The position numbers and the translations under genes were made by a program. A DNA stretch of 64,000 nt, from the IMG/VR virus record IMGVR_UViG_3300009151_000047, positions 1 through 64,000 of that record; one strand, 5' to 3'. The notes below the pieces were generated by a model, which made no database searches, was not told the origin of the DNA, and saw only the letters and a program-made list of their open reading frames with translations. Origin of the DNA: a virus. Of the stretch, positions 13,259 through 21,713 are shown piece by piece (position 1 is the stretch's first letter; every line of letters begins with the position of its first letter).

Positions 13259-14089
13259 ATGAAATCATTACAAGAATTTAAATCAATCGTAGAAGAAGAA
13301 AAATCAGACTATTCAAAGTTTGACGTTTTAGTTCGTGCTGGTTTAGGTAACAAAGCACAGATACAAAGACTACATAAAATTCTTGGTAAAATGGAAGAAG
13401 AGAAACCAAATTTCTCTCCTGCCGATAGAGCAATCATTCAAAATATCTTTAATAGAATGGTAGATGTTATTACTAATAATAAACAAATCTTCTCTCAAGC
13501 ACGTAGAGCAGTAAGAGAAGATTTAGATGAAGGTGTTCTTGCAACATCAGATTATAAGATTGATTCTGCTGGTCACAAATATAAAGCACATCGTATTAAA
13601 GTTGGGCAAGATGCACCAGAAATTGGTGATGATCCAGATAAGATTAAAGAAGAAATTGAAATTGTAGAAGCAGATAATGTAATGAAAGGTGATCCACCCG
13701 TTACATTGTTACTGAAAAGAAAAGCAATTCGTTTGTATCCAGATGAAACAAAGATTGCACTATACTATAATGAAAGATTGAAAAAGTATTTTAGTGTAGC
13801 GTATTCAAATGAAAAACATATTGAAGGTGCTTCTATTCAAGCTGAAGAAGTAGAATTGGAAGAAGCAGTTATGGATACACTACATAAAATTGTATCTGAT
13901 AAATCCGCTAAATCGGTTAAATTTGCTTCTGGTCATACACGTAAAGTAGATCATTTTACAGCATCAGCATTAACACAAGTTCATAATGCATTAAATGATC
14001 AAAATAAAAAGAAGTTTGCAGATATGTTACATAAGAGTCCTGGTAACTTTCAAAAAGCAGCAGACTTTGCTTTTAAACGTGCCAAATGA
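13259..14089 (+). CDS. Probable prohead core or internal protein with gp21-type cleavage sites
   Basis: 276 residues. It begins MKSLQEFKSIVEEEKS, which resembles the capsid-targeting start of T4 internal proteins. Acidic linkers contain DLDE/G, EIVE/A and ELEE/A, all fitting the gp21 rule (I/L)xE. The C-terminal ~75 residues are basic and contain VKFASGHTRKVDHFTASAL and a NKKKFADMLHKSP segment, a module that recurs in T4-like phage proteins. The gene lies between the core protein and gp21, one base after the previous stop, and overlaps the next gene by four bases. A core protein cut into DNA-binding pieces is the best reading, but is inference. Confidence 0.6.
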   Translation: MKSLQEFKSIVEEEKSDYSKFDVLVRAGLGNKAQIQRLHKILGKMEEEKPNFSPADRAIIQNIFNRMVDVITNNKQIFSQARRAVREDLDEGVLATSDYKIDSAGHKYKAHRIKVGQDAPEIGDDPDKIKEEIEIVEADNVMKGDPPVTLLLKRKAIRLYPDETKIALYYNERLKKYFSVAYSNEKHIEGASIQAEEVELEEAVMDTLHKIVSDKSAKSVKFASGHTRKVDHFTASALTQVHNALNDQNKKKFADMLHKSPGNFQKAADFAFKRAK

Positions 14090-14511
14090 TTATAGATTTA
14101 ATTTTAAGTAATAGACTCAGTGAAGCAAAAGAACTAATATTTGCCAAACTAAATGAAATTACTGAAAAGAGATTAGAAGAAGCAAAGAGATATGTTGCTG
14201 AAGGTTCATTTGAAGAAGTTGAATTAGATGAAGCAAACATTATCAAGATGGGTAGAATTACAAAGATTAGACGAAGGATTCGTAGGAACAAAAAGAATAG
14301 AATAATTGTTCAACGAAATGTTCGTAAATCTGGTATTAAAGGTTATAGACTTTCAGGTAATACAGTTAAACGAATTCCTGCATCAACAAGAATTCATAAA
14401 GCTAGAATGTTAAAAAGATATTGGAAAACAAAAGGTCGTGCGAAGATTAATAGAGTTTTGTTGAAAAGAAAACAATCAATTCGCCGCCGCAACTCAATGG
14501 GGATAAAGTAA
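14086..14511 (+). CDS. Prohead protein precursor with protamine-like C-terminal part
   Basis: 141 residues. The first 49 are acidic-amphipathic and contain four (I/L)xE sites: LSE13, LNE24, LEE32 and LDE49. The remaining 92 residues contain 35 Lys/Arg and not a single Asp or Glu. Cutting after E49, followed by Ala, would release a protamine-like DNA-binding peptide. The N-terminal part (LSEAKELIFAKLNEI) recalls T4 gp68-type core proteins. It overlaps the previous gene by ATGA and is followed directly by the 120-aa gene. The role in DNA condensation inside the head is inferred. Confidence 0.6.
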   Translation: MIIDLILSNRLSEAKELIFAKLNEITEKRLEEAKRYVAEGSFEEVELDEANIIKMGRITKIRRRIRRNKKNRIIVQRNVRKSGIKGYRLSGNTVKRIPASTRIHKARMLKRYWKTKGRAKINRVLLKRKQSIRRRNSMGIK

Positions 14512-14874
14512 ATGGCATATGAAATAACAAATTCAAGAAAAGGTACTAGTATTGTTCGTGCTGAAGGTCCAGCAACTTATACCATTTTGTTAACCGATCT
14601 TTCAGCTTCTGTTCAAGAAACAATAACATCAGCTTCTCTTCGTAGAATTACTTGGTCTACTAATGGTTCTATTACCATTTCAAGAACAGGCGGACCAACA
14701 GTGTTATCATTATATCAAACTGGTGATATGAAATTTGATGAATTTGGATATGCGTTATCCAACACATCAACGGCAAACATTGTATGCACTATTGCAACAG
14801 GTGGATCAATCATTATGGAAGTATCTAAACATGCTAATTATGCTAACGATGTTTATAGCCAAGCATTTGCTTAA
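14512..14874 (+). CDS. Putative virion protein of unknown function (120 aa)
   Basis: A 120-residue, Thr/Ser-rich, all-beta-looking protein starting right after the previous stop codon. It has no Cys-rich or catalytic motif and no signal peptide. Its place between core protein and gp21 protease, and its composition, suggest a head or decoration protein. I do not recognise a named family. Confidence 0.55.
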   Translation: MAYEITNSRKGTSIVRAEGPATYTILLTDLSASVQETITSASLRRITWSTNGSITISRTGGPTVLSLYQTGDMKFDEFGYALSNTSTANIVCTIATGGSIIMEVSKHANYANDVYSQAFA

Positions 14875-14888
14875 TCGGAATAACTACT

Positions 14889-15539
14889 ATGAAACTAATT
14901 AGAGAAAATATTGAATCAGTAAATTATATTACTGAATCAAACGAAGCAGGTAAAAAATCATTGTTTATTGAAGGACGATTTTTAGTTGCTGAAGAACCAA
15001 ATAAGAATAGAAGAATTTATAAGATGCCTATTCTAGAGCGTGAAGTGCAGAGATATACTGAAGAGTTTATCAATACCAATCGTGCTTTAGGAGAGTTAGG
15101 ACATCCAGATACTCCAAGTATTAATTTAGAAAGAGTATCACACAAAATTGTTAGTTTGACTAAAGAAGGCAATACTTTTGTTGGTAAAGCAATGATCTTA
15201 GAAACACCTTATGGTAATATTGTTAAAAACTTTATTGATTCTGGTGTTAGTCTAGGTGTATCATCAAGAGGTATGGGTTCATTAGTTGCTAATAATGAGG
15301 GTGTCAATGTTGTGCAGGATGATTTTCGTCTTGCTACAGCAGCAGATATTGTTGCAGATCCATCAGCACCTGGTGCATTTGTAAATGGTATTATGGAAGG
15401 CAAAGAATGGCTATTTGTTGAGGGTCGTTTCGTAGAGATCGACATTGATAACTCAAGAAAGCAAATTAGAAAAGCCTCAAGTAAGCAAATAGAAGAAGTT
15501 TCATTGAGACTCTTCGAAAACTTTTTATCAAAACTTTAA
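14889..15539 (+). CDS. 21: Prohead core protease gp21-like
   Basis: 216 residues, against 212 in T4. It is a herpesvirus-type serine protease of phage heads: the catalytic His is in LGELGHPDTPS (H72) and the Ser in LGVSSRGMGS (S125/S126). LFIEGRFLVAEEPNKN and the IVADPSAPGAFVNGI segment are also typical. It cleaves core and capsid proteins after (I/L)xE during head maturation. It lies directly before scaffold and capsid genes as in T4. Its own start (MKLIRENIESVNYITE) contains an I-T-E that could be a self-cleavage site. Confidence 0.95.
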   Translation: MKLIRENIESVNYITESNEAGKKSLFIEGRFLVAEEPNKNRRIYKMPILEREVQRYTEEFINTNRALGELGHPDTPSINLERVSHKIVSLTKEGNTFVGKAMILETPYGNIVKNFIDSGVSLGVSSRGMGSLVANNEGVNVVQDDFRLATAADIVADPSAPGAFVNGIMEGKEWLFVEGRFVEIDIDNSRKQIRKASSKQIEEVSLRLFENFLSKL

Positions 15540-15573: not shown

Positions 15574-16554
15574 ATGGCAACAAACAAACTTTTTGAGGCA
15601 GCAGCCGAAATTCTTTCTGGCACCAAAGGAAAGAACGCTGCACCTATGGAAAAACCACAAGGCGTAGAAATCCATGATGCAGGTGGTCCAACACCACAAA
15701 ATGCAAAACCAGATGATGATTCACACAAGATTACACCATCATCAAAGTCTGCAACTGCACCAACAACAAAACCATCAGATGCTTCCTCTAAAATGGAAGA
15801 AACGGAAGTAGAAATCGAATTGTTAGATGTATCAAGTGATATTGATGCAATGTTTGCTGACTCAGCAATTTCAGAAGAATTCAGATCAAAAGTTTCAACC
15901 ATTTTTGAAGCACGAGTTCAAGACCGTATTTCACAATTAGAAGAAGAAACAGAAGCACGTTATGCTTCTATGTTAGAAGAAGCAGTAGAATCAGTTAAAG
16001 AAGATTTGACAGAAAAAGTAAATGATTACCTGTCATATGTTGTAGAACAATGGATTGCCGACAATGAAATCGCAATCGAAAAAGGTCTACGTGCTGAATT
16101 AACAGAAGATTTTATTGCTGGTCTTAAAAATCTATTCGTAGAACATTACATTGATGTTCCTACAGACAAAGTTGATTTGGTAGAAGAGTTAGCATCTAAA
16201 GTTGAAGAACTTGAAGGCCAACTTAACGAAGAAATCGAACGTGGTATTGAAATCAAGAAGTCATTGGTTGAATCACGTAAACAAGAAATTACCCATGCAG
16301 TTACCGAAGGGTTGATCGCTACTCAAGTTGAAAAAATCAAATCACTCGCAGAGGGTGTTGAATTCTCCACAGAGGACGAATACAAAAACAAACTTGAAAC
16401 TATCCGTGAAAACTACTTCCCATCAGGCAATGTTAAAAAAGCTGATGCTGACCAACTACATGAACAAGTAGAGGACGGTTCAGAAAAACACCAGGCATCA
16501 TTAGATCCTTATGTTAATTCCGTCATGCAAGCAATTTCAAAAAGTAAGAAATAA
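15574..16554 (+). CDS. 22: Prohead scaffold protein gp22-like
   Basis: 326 residues, against 269 in T4. It is very acidic and largely alpha-helical, with a Pro/Ser/Thr-rich disordered segment at residues ~25-75 and long coiled-coil stretches after it (EFRSKVSTIFEARVQDRI, EELEGQLNEEIERGIEIKK). gp22 forms the internal core around which gp23 assembles and is then degraded by gp21. Position between gp21 and gp23 is diagnostic. Confidence 0.93.
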   Translation: MATNKLFEAAAEILSGTKGKNAAPMEKPQGVEIHDAGGPTPQNAKPDDDSHKITPSSKSATAPTTKPSDASSKMEETEVEIELLDVSSDIDAMFADSAISEEFRSKVSTIFEARVQDRISQLEEETEARYASMLEEAVESVKEDLTEKVNDYLSYVVEQWIADNEIAIEKGLRAELTEDFIAGLKNLFVEHYIDVPTDKVDLVEELASKVEELEGQLNEEIERGIEIKKSLVESRKQEITHAVTEGLIATQVEKIKSLAEGVEFSTEDEYKNKLETIRENYFPSGNVKKADADQLHEQVEDGSEKHQASLDPYVNSVMQAISKSKK

Positions 16555-18574: not shown

Positions 18575-19009
18575 ATGAATAAACTTGATGAATTATTAGA
18601 AATGTGGCGCAAAGATTCTGTCATTGATAGAACAGAACCTGGCAGAGAATTAATTAATATACCACAATTACATAGCAAATACTTGAATATGCTTTCAAGA
18701 CATAGGTTGTTGTCTAAAGAAGCAGAGTTTAAGTATAACAAAATGCGTAGAGTAAAGTGGGAATACTATACTGGTAAACTAGATGATGACCAACTTAAGA
18801 AGTATGGTTGGGAACCATTTCCTTTTGTTCTTAAATCTGAAGTGGCATCATATCTTGAAAGTGATGATGACCTAAACAAGTATGTTGCAATTAAAGTTAT
18901 GCATGATGAAATTGTTGAAGTGTGTCAGAGTATTATGAAAGAACTAAATAGTAGGACATTTCAACTGAGGGACTTTATAACATGGGAAAGGTTTATACAG
19001 GGTGTATGA
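18575..19009 (+). CDS. uvsY: Recombination mediator UvsY-like
   Basis: 144 residues, against 137 in T4. The pattern LLEMWRKDSVIDRTEPGRELINIPQLHSKYLN and YYTGKLDDDQLKKYGWEPF is typical of UvsY in T4-like phages. UvsY displaces the single-strand binding protein and loads UvsX recombinase. It has an AAGGAG ribosome binding site and an early promoter, and overlaps uvsW by eight bases. Confidence 0.92.
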   Translation: MNKLDELLEMWRKDSVIDRTEPGRELINIPQLHSKYLNMLSRHRLLSKEAEFKYNKMRRVKWEYYTGKLDDDQLKKYGWEPFPFVLKSEVASYLESDDDLNKYVAIKVMHDEIVEVCQSIMKELNSRTFQLRDFITWERFIQGV

Positions 19010-19772
19010 TTTAAGATTAGAAAAGGTCAACGAAGCCTTTATCAGAGTAGTATCAGAAAGAAATGTAGCACAAGAACTTTCTCAATATTTTGAATTTTAT
19101 GTTCCAGGTTATCAATACACACCCAAATTTAAAGCGAGAGTTTGGGATGGGAAGGTGAGGCTCCTAAATTTAAGAACCATGGAAATATACCATGGCTTGG
19201 TACCTTATATTGAAAAGTTTTGTAAAGAAAGAGATTACAAAATTGAGATTGATTCTGAGATAACAGTCACAGACAATTACTCCCTAAAAGAAGCCAATGA
19301 CTTTATACAGACACTTGGTTTGCCATTTGAACCTCGTGACTATCAAGTTAACTCTTTTGTTCATGCAATCCGTAATAAAAGAATTCTACTTCTTTCACCT
19401 ACTGCATCAGGTAAATCTTTAATCATTTATTTGATGTTGAGATATATTCAGCAAACACAAAGAAAAGGTTTATTGGTTGTACCAACAACTTCACTCGTTG
19501 AACAGATGTATACCGACTTTCAATCTTATGGATATAACTCAGAAGAGTTTTGTCATAAACAGTATGCAGGTAAAGATAAGGTCACAGATAAGTTTTTGAC
19601 CATCACAACATGGCAATCTATCTACAAAAATCCACCTGAATACTTCAATCAATTTGATTTTGTTATAGGTGATGAGGCACACCAATTTAAAGCCAAATCA
19701 CTCGCCACAATCATGACACAATTGGTTAATGCAAAATATAGAATAGGTTGCACCGGAACATTATCTAATTAA
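19002..19772 (+). CDS. uvsW: UvsW helicase, N-terminal half (gene split by insertion)
   Basis: 256 residues holding the N-terminal substrate-binding domain and RecA-like domain 1 of the superfamily 2 helicase UvsW. Walker A is SPTASGKSL (K138), the DExH box is GDEAH (D224-H227), and the reading frame stops just after motif III (CTGTLSN). In intact homologues this is followed at once by the VHRLVLEGLFGP segment, which here begins the separate frame at 20463. UvsW (recombination and R-loop helicase) should be ~490 residues; 256 + 231 fits a split of one gene. The two halves may associate, as other endonuclease-split phage enzymes do. Confidence 0.88.
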   Translation: MYDLRLEKVNEAFIRVVSERNVAQELSQYFEFYVPGYQYTPKFKARVWDGKVRLLNLRTMEIYHGLVPYIEKFCKERDYKIEIDSEITVTDNYSLKEANDFIQTLGLPFEPRDYQVNSFVHAIRNKRILLLSPTASGKSLIIYLMLRYIQQTQRKGLLVVPTTSLVEQMYTDFQSYGYNSEEFCHKQYAGKDKVTDKFLTITTWQSIYKNPPEYFNQFDFVIGDEAHQFKAKSLATIMTQLVNAKYRIGCTGTLSN

Positions 19773-19794
19773 CCTATTAGAAGGAACTAAAACG

Positions 19795-19802
19795 CATAAA
19801 TA
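19795..19802 (+). promoter_or_regulatory. Possible late promoter for the HNH endonuclease
   Basis: CATAAATA differs from TATAAATA in one base and ends 6 bases before the ATG at 19808. Freestanding endonucleases in T4 are often late genes. The short spacing and the mismatch make this weak. Confidence 0.3.
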
Positions 19803-19807
19803 GAAAT

Positions 19808-20470
19808 ATGGACTATCAAAAAATATATTACTCTATAATAGAAAAAGCTAATACTCGGACATTGACCGAGTATTTTGAGGAGCACCATATAATACCTAAA
19901 TCTTTAGGTGGTGACAATGGTAAAAAAAATAAAGTAAAATTGACAGCAAGAGAACACTTTGTGTGTCATTGGTTATTATGGAAATTTTCAAAAGGAAAAG
20001 ATAAAATTAAAATGGGTCATGCTTTTGGCATGATGAGATACCATGATTCTACTAATAGGTACTACACTTCAATTGGTTATGAAATAGCTAGAAAAGCACA
20101 CTCTTTATCAGCAAGTTTACATCATAAAGGTAAAACTCTTTCTGATAAAGAAATGAAAAGAATGTCAGAAAATAATCCAAATGCTAAAGAAATAGAAATA
20201 AATGGAATAAAGTATAAAAGTAGAAAAGAAGCTTGGGAAAAATTACAAACAACAAAAAGAAGGTTGTATTCTTTTATTGATGGAAAAATATCCTTTGAAC
20301 AATTAACATATAGTGGCAGATATCCACACACAGAAGAATCTAAGAAAAAAATTGGTGATTGGTCAAGAGGCAAAACATACGAAGAACTTTTAGGTAAAGA
20401 AAAATCTTTATTATTGATAGAAAAAAGACGACAACAAATGTTAAAAAATATTATGGAAAAAAATGAGTAA
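19808..20470 (+). CDS. HNH homing endonuclease
   Basis: 220 residues. The HNH core is EEHHIIPKSLGGDNGKKNK followed by LTAREHFVCHWLL (residues ~25-60), the usual form in phage homing endonucleases. The C-terminal half has NUMOD-type DNA-binding elements: INGIKYKSRKEAWEKL (helix-turn-helix type, ~120-135) and HTEESKKKIGDWSRGKT (NUMOD3-like, ~175-190). It cuts uvsW alleles lacking the insert so that the element is copied by recombination. The stop codon overlaps the start of the second uvsW half by eight bases, so that half is translated after it. Confidence 0.9.
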   Translation: MDYQKIYYSIIEKANTRTLTEYFEEHHIIPKSLGGDNGKKNKVKLTAREHFVCHWLLWKFSKGKDKIKMGHAFGMMRYHDSTNRYYTSIGYEIARKAHSLSASLHHKGKTLSDKEMKRMSENNPNAKEIEINGIKYKSRKEAWEKLQTTKRRLYSFIDGKISFEQLTYSGRYPHTEESKKKIGDWSRGKTYEELLGKEKSLLLIEKRRQQMLKNIMEKNE

Positions 20471-21158
20471 TGTTCATAGATTAGTATTAGAAGGTTTATT
20501 TGGACCAGTATATAAAGCAACAACAACAAAAGAATTAATGGATAACAAACAGTTATCTAAATTTAAGATTAAATGTTTAATACTTAAATATCCAGAAGAA
20601 GTTTGTAAGTTATCTAAGAAGTGGGACTACAAAGAAGAGATTGAATATATAGTATTGAACACAGCAAGAAATGCATTTATAAAGAATCTTGCCTTGTCGT
20701 TGAAAGGTAATTCATTAATACTATTTCAATTTGTAGATAAACATGGTAAAGTTCTACATAATATTATAAAAGAAGAAGCAGGTAAACGTAAAGTATTTTT
20801 TGTATATGGTGGTACTGATACCGAAGTTAGAGAATCTATTAGAGATATAACTGAACGTGAAACAGATGCCATTATTGTTGCTTCATACGGTACATTCTCA
20901 ACTGGTATTAATATACGTAATTTACATAATGTAATATTTGCATCACCATCTAAATCAAAAATTCGTAATCTACAATCAATTGGTCGTGGACTTAGATTAG
21001 GTGATAATAAAGAAGAAGCGGTTCTTTATGATATCTCTGATGATTTTAGAATAGGCAAACATGTTAATTATACCTTGACACACTTCGTTGGCAGAGTAAA
21101 GATGTATGACGATGAAAAATTTAATTATAAGTTTTATAATATAGAATTAAAAATTTAA
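20463..21158 (+). CDS. uvsW: UvsW helicase, C-terminal half
   Basis: 231 residues. It begins MSNVHRLVLEGLFGPVYKAT, the normal continuation of UvsW after motif III, and carries the second RecA-like domain with motifs IV-VI (VFFVYGGTD, ASYGTFSTGINIRNL, LQSIGRGLRLG). The start codon and ribosome binding site (ATGGAAAAAAATG) are supplied by the tail of the HNH gene. Alone it lacks ATP-binding Walker motifs, so activity would require pairing with the 19002 product. It converges with the GIY-YIG gene; the two stop codons overlap. Confidence 0.87.
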   Translation: MSNVHRLVLEGLFGPVYKATTTKELMDNKQLSKFKIKCLILKYPEEVCKLSKKWDYKEEIEYIVLNTARNAFIKNLALSLKGNSLILFQFVDKHGKVLHNIIKEEAGKRKVFFVYGGTDTEVRESIRDITERETDAIIVASYGTFSTGINIRNLHNVIFASPSKSKIRNLQSIGRGLRLGDNKEEAVLYDISDDFRIGKHVNYTLTHFVGRVKMYDDEKFNYKFYNIELKI

Positions 21159-21655
21159 TTTTTATTAAAAGTTTTTTTGGAATGTTGTAATTTTTCTTCT
21201 TTTGTTTTTTTATCCCAATACTGTTTCATTTTTTGACTATGATCTGGTCTAAGTTTACCTGTTTTATTAATTGATAATTTATTTTTAGATTCTGGTGTAT
21301 GATTATATCCACTTAAAAGTCTAGCTTTTTTTCGTTTTTGTATGTGTATTTCTGATTGTTTATAACCGGATGTTCCATCACCACCATCAGTTAAATTTCT
21401 AAGTATACCTGTACCATTATCAATTCTTCCATACCATTGAATCATTCTTCTTTCTATGGCAAATGCTCCAATTTCCGTTAAATTAGCTTGCATTATTATT
21501 ATTTTTGTGTTATCATTAGGTATGTTTATTGAATGATTTTTGTTCCATGCTCTATCTCTGCAACCTTTACCTATATAATAAGGTAAATTATTATCTCTTA
21601 GATAAGCATATACATAAAAATGATTAGGTCTGTTTTTAGAAGAATAAATAGTCAT
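21155..21655 (-). CDS. GIY-YIG homing endonuclease (freestanding)
   Basis: 166 residues from the ATG at 21655, chosen because AAAGGA lies ten bases upstream; the frame stays open to a TTG at 21697. The N-terminal GIY-YIG nuclease has HFYVYAYL and LPYYIGKG, with GCRDRAWN and the ERRMIQWYGR segment (the Arg and the catalytic region). The C-terminal half is basic with NUMOD3-like repeats (GYNHTPESKNK, LRPDHSQKMKQYW). It is the only gene on the minus strand in the window and lies directly behind the split uvsW. A minus-strand TATAAATA just upstream gives it an independent late promoter. Confidence 0.87.
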   Translation of the reverse strand: MTIYSSKNRPNHFYVYAYLRDNNLPYYIGKGCRDRAWNKNHSINIPNDNTKIIIMQANLTEIGAFAIERRMIQWYGRIDNGTGILRNLTDGGDGTSGYKQSEIHIQKRKKARLLSGYNHTPESKNKLSINKTGKLRPDHSQKMKQYWDKKTKEEKLQHSKKTFNKN

Positions 21656-21713
21656 ACTGATACGGTCCTTTCGTATTAGAGTAGGTGCGAGCTGCAACTC
21701 GGCGATCTACACT

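Follow-up and report, generated by a model that had tools for sequence, protein, structure and literature searches.

A probable gp68 counterpart with a gp67-like N-terminal module in the head gene cluster of uncultured T4-like phages

We analyzed a stretch of 64,000 nucleotides of viral DNA (positions 1 to 64,000 of IMG/VR record IMGVR_UViG_3300009151_000047; here called the window) that contains a T4-like head gene cluster. The cluster runs in the order gp20, a gp67-type gene, a 276-aa open reading frame (ORF), a 141-aa ORF, a 120-aa ORF, gp21, gp22, and gp23, with Pfam matches for gp20 (PF07230), gp21 (PF03420), gp22 (PF25623), and gp23 (PF07068). The 141-aa ORF begins with an ATG that overlaps the preceding stop codon (ATGA). 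An initial annotation of this DNA had taken its product for a phage head protein, which is borne out by the position in the head cluster and by profile homology to gp67 and gp68. It had also placed the gene against that of the gp21 protease; the 120-aa ORF (14512-14874) in fact separates the two. The features of the locus are collected in Table 1.

Table 1. Head-cluster genes and features of the 141-aa protein, with positions in the window
Feature	Position	Strand	Basis
gp67-type core protein, 59 aa	13078..13257	+	PHROG 1064, E 3.6e-5
Probable gp68-type prohead core protein, 141 aa	14086..14511	+	ORF; gene order (gp20 and gp67 before, gp21, gp22, and gp23 after); homology of tail to gp68 tails
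Residues 1-49, gp67-like N-terminal module, acidic and largely helical, with four (I/L)xE sites besides that at the junction	14086..14232	+	hhalign to gp67 set; PHROG 1064 via family member L061; AF2 helix 11-54
LDE49 junction, predicted gp21 cleavage site	14224..14232	+	(I/L)xE in 63/63 homologues; low-confidence model segment 42-57; gp23 propeptide ends
Residues 50-141, basic tail, +35, acid-free, gp68-tail homologue	14233..14508	+	Charge counts, profile comparison
Residues 58-96, predicted beta-strand region of tail	14257..14373	+	AF2, pLDDT about 59-80
Residues 99-138, long basic helix	14380..14499	+	AF2, pLDDT about 80-95
Residues 120-141, C-terminal signature KRKxSxRRRxSMG[I/L], common to T4 gp68 (RKRKKALKRRKALGL)	14443..14508	+	hhalign E 8.8e-5, 22 columns
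gp21 prohead protease	14889..15539	+	PF03420, E 2.7e-34
gp22 scaffold, net charge -34; proposed partner of basic tail	15574..16554	+	PF25623, E 1.1e-66; charge count

Confirming a sharp charge split noticed earlier at E49, all 13 acidic residues of the 141-aa protein fall within residues 1 to 49 (P = 3.3e-7 under random residue order), and the 92 residues from 50 to 141 contain 35 Lys or Arg and no Asp or Glu. This tail is 38% Lys plus Arg and uses 16 residue types. No other ORF of 60 aa or longer in the window has an acid-free run with 14 or more basic residues. We counted five (I/L)xE sites in the protein, ending at E13, E24, E27, E32, and E49, rather than the four previously listed, ITE27 having been missed. 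Because five sites compared with 2.6 expected on shuffling is an unconvincing enrichment for this ORF taken alone (P = 0.07), we built the argument on conservation of the junction site instead.

The 141-aa protein belongs to a family found in at least 562 confirmed IMG/VR stretches. We assessed conservation on 63 distinct full-length proteins among the IMG/VR loci that were fetched, which are mutually related and do not represent 63 independent events. In all 63, the acidic residues of the N half end with the glutamate of the junction (I/L)xE, compared with 21% expected when the front half is shuffled. Tails contain 34 to 41 Lys or Arg, and 62 of the 63 lack any acidic residue, with a single Glu in the other; the charge segregation is thus kept in the IMG/VR homologues. 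Mean identity in the family is 78% for the tail versus 57% for the N half, and the tail is under purifying selection (median dN/dS of about 0.10), with W113, G86, G91, N68, and T115 invariant. Furthermore, 31 tail columns hold only basic residues, with Lys and Arg alternating in 14 of them, indicating that charge itself is selected. A tblastn search of 50,697 phage isolate records detected no relative, nor did a scan of the bacterial genome collection.

Gene order is also conserved. In all loci long enough to show them, gp20 lies upstream (111 of 111) and gp21 downstream (118 of 118) of the 141-aa-family gene, and the distance to gp21 is constant across loci and fits one gene in between. Because the gp23 propeptides of family loci terminate in [L/I/M]xE, the gp21-type protease of these loci probably keeps T4-type specificity. 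The earlier proposal of a precursor that releases its basic part therefore stands in part: a gp21-type site is invariant exactly at the boundary between acidic and basic residues, and from this we infer cleavage there, a plausible step for which conservation provides good support.

The two ORFs flanking the 141-aa gene have features of their own. The 276-aa ORF (13259-14089, plus strand) is kept between gp67 and the 141-aa-family gene in 111 of 111 loci and begins MKSLxEFKxIVEEE (MKSLQEF in the window); since this resembles the capsid-targeting start of T4 IPI (MKTFKEF), its product is a possible internal protein of the head. Over its last 72 residues, this product is 46% identical to a protein encoded elsewhere in the genome of Methylophilales phage Melnitz. 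The 120-aa protein (plus strand) has no family match; tblastn detected it in 99 of 118 loci, and in Melnitz the slot holds an 82-aa ORF. Its AF2 model is a confident all-beta fold (pLDDT 87, pTM 0.78) that matches many unnamed phage proteins, and a capsid decoration protein or another virion protein is possible. Farther along the window, the UvsW helicase gene is split (19002-21158, plus strand) into an N-terminal part (19002-19772; UvsW_N, ResIII) and a helicase C-terminal part (20463-21158), which are separated by a 220-aa ORF (19808-20470) with a weak, below-cutoff HNH match. This arrangement looks like a homing-endonuclease insertion. A 180-aa ORF on the minus strand (21155-21697), with a below-cutoff NUMOD3 match and a GIY-YIG-like start by eye, is possibly a second homing endonuclease.

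Searches with the single 141-aa sequence did not identify it. BLASTP against T4 gp68 gave no match, Pfam and PHROG searches gave insignificant matches only, and PDB searches by sequence and by fold gave nothing meaningful. Likewise, hhalign of the single sequence to the K364 protein was insignificant and became significant only once a family profile had been built. With profiles, hhalign aligned the family to T4-type gp68s over 22 C-terminal columns with a score of 32.6, compared with a best score of 21.6 in 200 column shuffles that preserved the two halves. A bridging set of gp68-like proteins (PhiW-14 "gp68-like," Moby/Smp14 "GP68," pf16, K364, phiA8-29, BX-1, ACP17, and TM21B), the majority of which have their gene directly upstream of gp21 and several of which other authors have annotated as gp68 or prohead core protein, matched T4 gp68 with an E value of 3e-12 (97.6%). 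The family tail in turn matched the bridging set over 82 columns, which take in nearly all of the basic part, with an E value of 1.4e-6, 90% probability, and a score of 41.4 when 63 sequences were used (21 sequences gave E 7.3e-6). As controls, 200 block shuffles scored at most 21.7 and the reversed profile scored 13.6.

The N half matched a gp67 set with a score of 38.8 and 95% probability, compared with 17.7 for the best of 200 shuffles, and the family member L061 matched PHROG 1064 ("prohead") with an E value of 3.3e-7. In a Foldseek search, the 141-aa protein matched an uncultured-phage "Prohead core protein" with a probability of 0.93. We ruled out basic composition alone as the driver of the profile matches by the 200 shuffles made for each comparison and, for the tail, by reversed profiles. 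Because the front half matches the gp67 N-terminal module and the tail matches gp68 tails, the 141-aa protein is, as judged from sequence profiles, a composite of a gp67-like module and a gp68-like tail. Its homology to gp68 is profile-based and confined to the tail, and the front half is not homologous to that of T4 gp68.

The AF2 model of the 141-aa protein places strands at residues 58-60, 65-67, 73-76, 80-82, 87-90, and 93-96, ahead of the long basic helix. Its least confident stretch, residues 42 to 57, surrounds LDE49 and is probably flexible.

Comparison with known head proteins likewise points to gp68. The 141-aa gene occupies a slot between gp67 and gp21, as does gene 68 in the T4 order 20-67-68-21-22-23, and T4 gp68 is also 141 aa long, with an acidic front whose (I/L)xE sites end at the junction and a C-terminal KRxxxGL signature. 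In T4-type gp68s generally, the junction carries (I/L)xE or a similar site in most members and the tail lacks (I/L)xE. Most proteins of the bridging set share the acidic N part, the (I/L)xE or similar site, the basic tail, and a KR..GL end. The 141-aa ORF thus has the slot between gp20/gp67 and gp21, the acidic front, the junction (I/L)xE, and the basic tail of a gp68. It differs from T4 gp68 in its front half, which resembles gp67, in the charge of its tail (+35 and acid-free, versus +23), and in having one extra gene on each side, and the similarity between the two is visible only with profiles. The gp68-like proteins of Delftia phage PhiW-14, Stenotrophomonas phages Smp14/Moby, Pseudomonas phage pf16, and the Ackermannviridae (PHROG 3503 and 33445) have homologous tails over the 82 aligned columns and are mostly encoded immediately upstream of gp21, but many of these tails have CxxGYK...C where the 141-aa family has KGYRLSGNT. 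Their fronts vary from about 10 to 187 residues: the front is about 10 to 25 residues in PhiW-14 and the Ackermannviridae and up to about 163 to 187 in ACP17 and Moby, compared with 67 residues in T4 gp68. With T4 gp67 (PHROG 1064), the 141-aa protein shares an N-terminal helical module of about 45 residues; unlike gp67, whose tail is short or acidic, it continues into a basic gp68-type tail, and the cluster has a separate gp67 gene.

Considering these results together, we judge it likely, with a probability of about 0.75, that the 141-aa protein corresponds to gp68 in a large group of uncultured T4-like phages, and that its gp67-like scaffold-docking module and gp22-pairing tail are parted by gp21 at maturation. 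In this model, residues 1 to 49 would dock the protein in the scaffolding core, as suggested by their homology to gp67, and residues 50 to 141 would pair electrostatically with the acidic scaffold gp22, a partner proposed from the opposite net charges (-34 for gp22 and +35 for the tail). By analogy with T4 gp68, to which it is homologous, the tail would help to set core and head geometry. Once the shell is complete, gp21 would cut the N-terminal module at its (I/L)xE sites and at the conserved LDE49, freeing the tail in one piece that gp21 could not cut further because it lacks Glu. The freed tail would most likely leave the prohead with other core fragments, as reported for T4. Speaking against the gp68 assignment, the 141-aa ORF has no pairwise BLAST similarity to T4 gp68 and no clearly significant PHROG or Pfam family.

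The literature that we found on the fate of the gp68 tail consists of review statements that conflict with each other. One review tabulates T4 gp68 at 240 copies per prohead and 0 per mature head, as not cleaved, and as essential (PMC9026906 Table 1), and its text describes core-protein cleavage. A second review contradicts this table on both cleavage and essentiality, describing gp68 as degraded by gp21 and non-essential (PMC9958956). Mutations in T4 gp67 and gp68 change head shape, with mutants making isometric heads, and related cyanomyoviruses are reported to be without gp67 and gp68 (PMC2984593), so a need for the 141-aa protein in its own lineage is not obvious. Where gp67 would lie, cyanophages said to lack it encode an acidic protein (PHROG 683; L085:4706-5017 and L086:4685-5017), and T4 gp67 also matches PHROG 683, weakly (E 0.0011); cyanophages may have a diverged gp67.

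We also weighed readings in which the tail stays in the head. It is doubtful that cleavage at the junction acts as a charge switch across T4-like phages, converting a scaffold-bound precursor into a free, protease-proof basic domain, some of which would stay in the head here to organize or accompany the DNA. Unlikely, in our view, is the possibility that the basic 92-residue peptide remains in the mature head after gp21 cleavage and binds the genome in the manner of a viral protamine. The invariant junction site, the absence of gp21 sites from the tail, and the selection on charge seen in the always-basic columns all fit such a peptide. Furthermore, two peptides of a "prohead core" protein, gp154, were detected in CsCl-purified virions of the Kuttervirus-like phage Sajous1, in which gp154 is numbered next to the prohead protease gp155 (PMC10892097). 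In another Kuttervirus, the corresponding slot is occupied by a gp68-like protein, from which the identity of Sajous1 gp154 is deduced, and the peptides weakly suggest that some gp68-like material can remain in virions; the Sajous1 authors, however, regard a small number of peptides as compatible with either a virion protein or debris (PMC10892097). Against retention stand the 0 copies of T4 gp68 in mature heads (PMC9026906 Table 1) and a small charge offset, since 240 copies (a number borrowed from T4) at +35 would supply 8,400 charges for about 320,000 phosphates, or approximately 2.6%. The tail is also a conserved homologue of gp68 tails that appears folded, with strands and a helix in the AF2 model, and not the very Arg-rich, low-complexity, disordered chain of a protamine. 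The protamine likeness proposed in the initial annotation is consequently not supported, and it is less likely that the tail is kept in the head to bind DNA like a protamine than that it is lost.

A role for the tail like that of T4 IPI-IPIII, as an internal head protein that is injected along with the DNA and is active in the host cell, with the N half as a targeting and pro-sequence, is likewise improbable. Removal of an N-terminal targeting piece by gp21 is the known scheme for T4 internal proteins (PMC9026906), and these proteins, which are basic and bind DNA at low salt, share with the 141-aa protein a basic remainder. However, homology is to gp68 and we found no sequence similarity to an internal protein, the gene is not in the positions of internal protein genes, and internal proteins are poorly conserved between phages (PMC9026906), in contrast to the strongly conserved tail here. 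The N terminus, MIIDLILSN, is not a capsid-targeting sequence of the MKT..EF type, and the start of the neighboring 276-aa ORF is closer to that of IPI. It is very improbable that the 141-aa protein is an unrelated nucleic acid-binding protein located in the head operon by chance; it is very basic and has no significant named-family match by single-sequence search, but its controlled profile homology to gp67 and gp68 and a slot kept in all loci argue otherwise.

The assignment of the 141-aa protein as a gp68 counterpart would give a name to an abundant freshwater-phage protein family that no single-sequence search annotates. It also indicates that the tail of gp68 is mobile as a module and occurs behind various fronts, of which that in this family is gp67-like. 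As the related cyanophages are reportedly without gp67 and gp68, the freshwater group would offer a natural comparison for the link of these proteins with head shape. Finally, the question in T4 of whether gp68 is cleaved, and of what becomes of its basic half, becomes a precise one about a single conserved junction cut and a single Glu-poor product.
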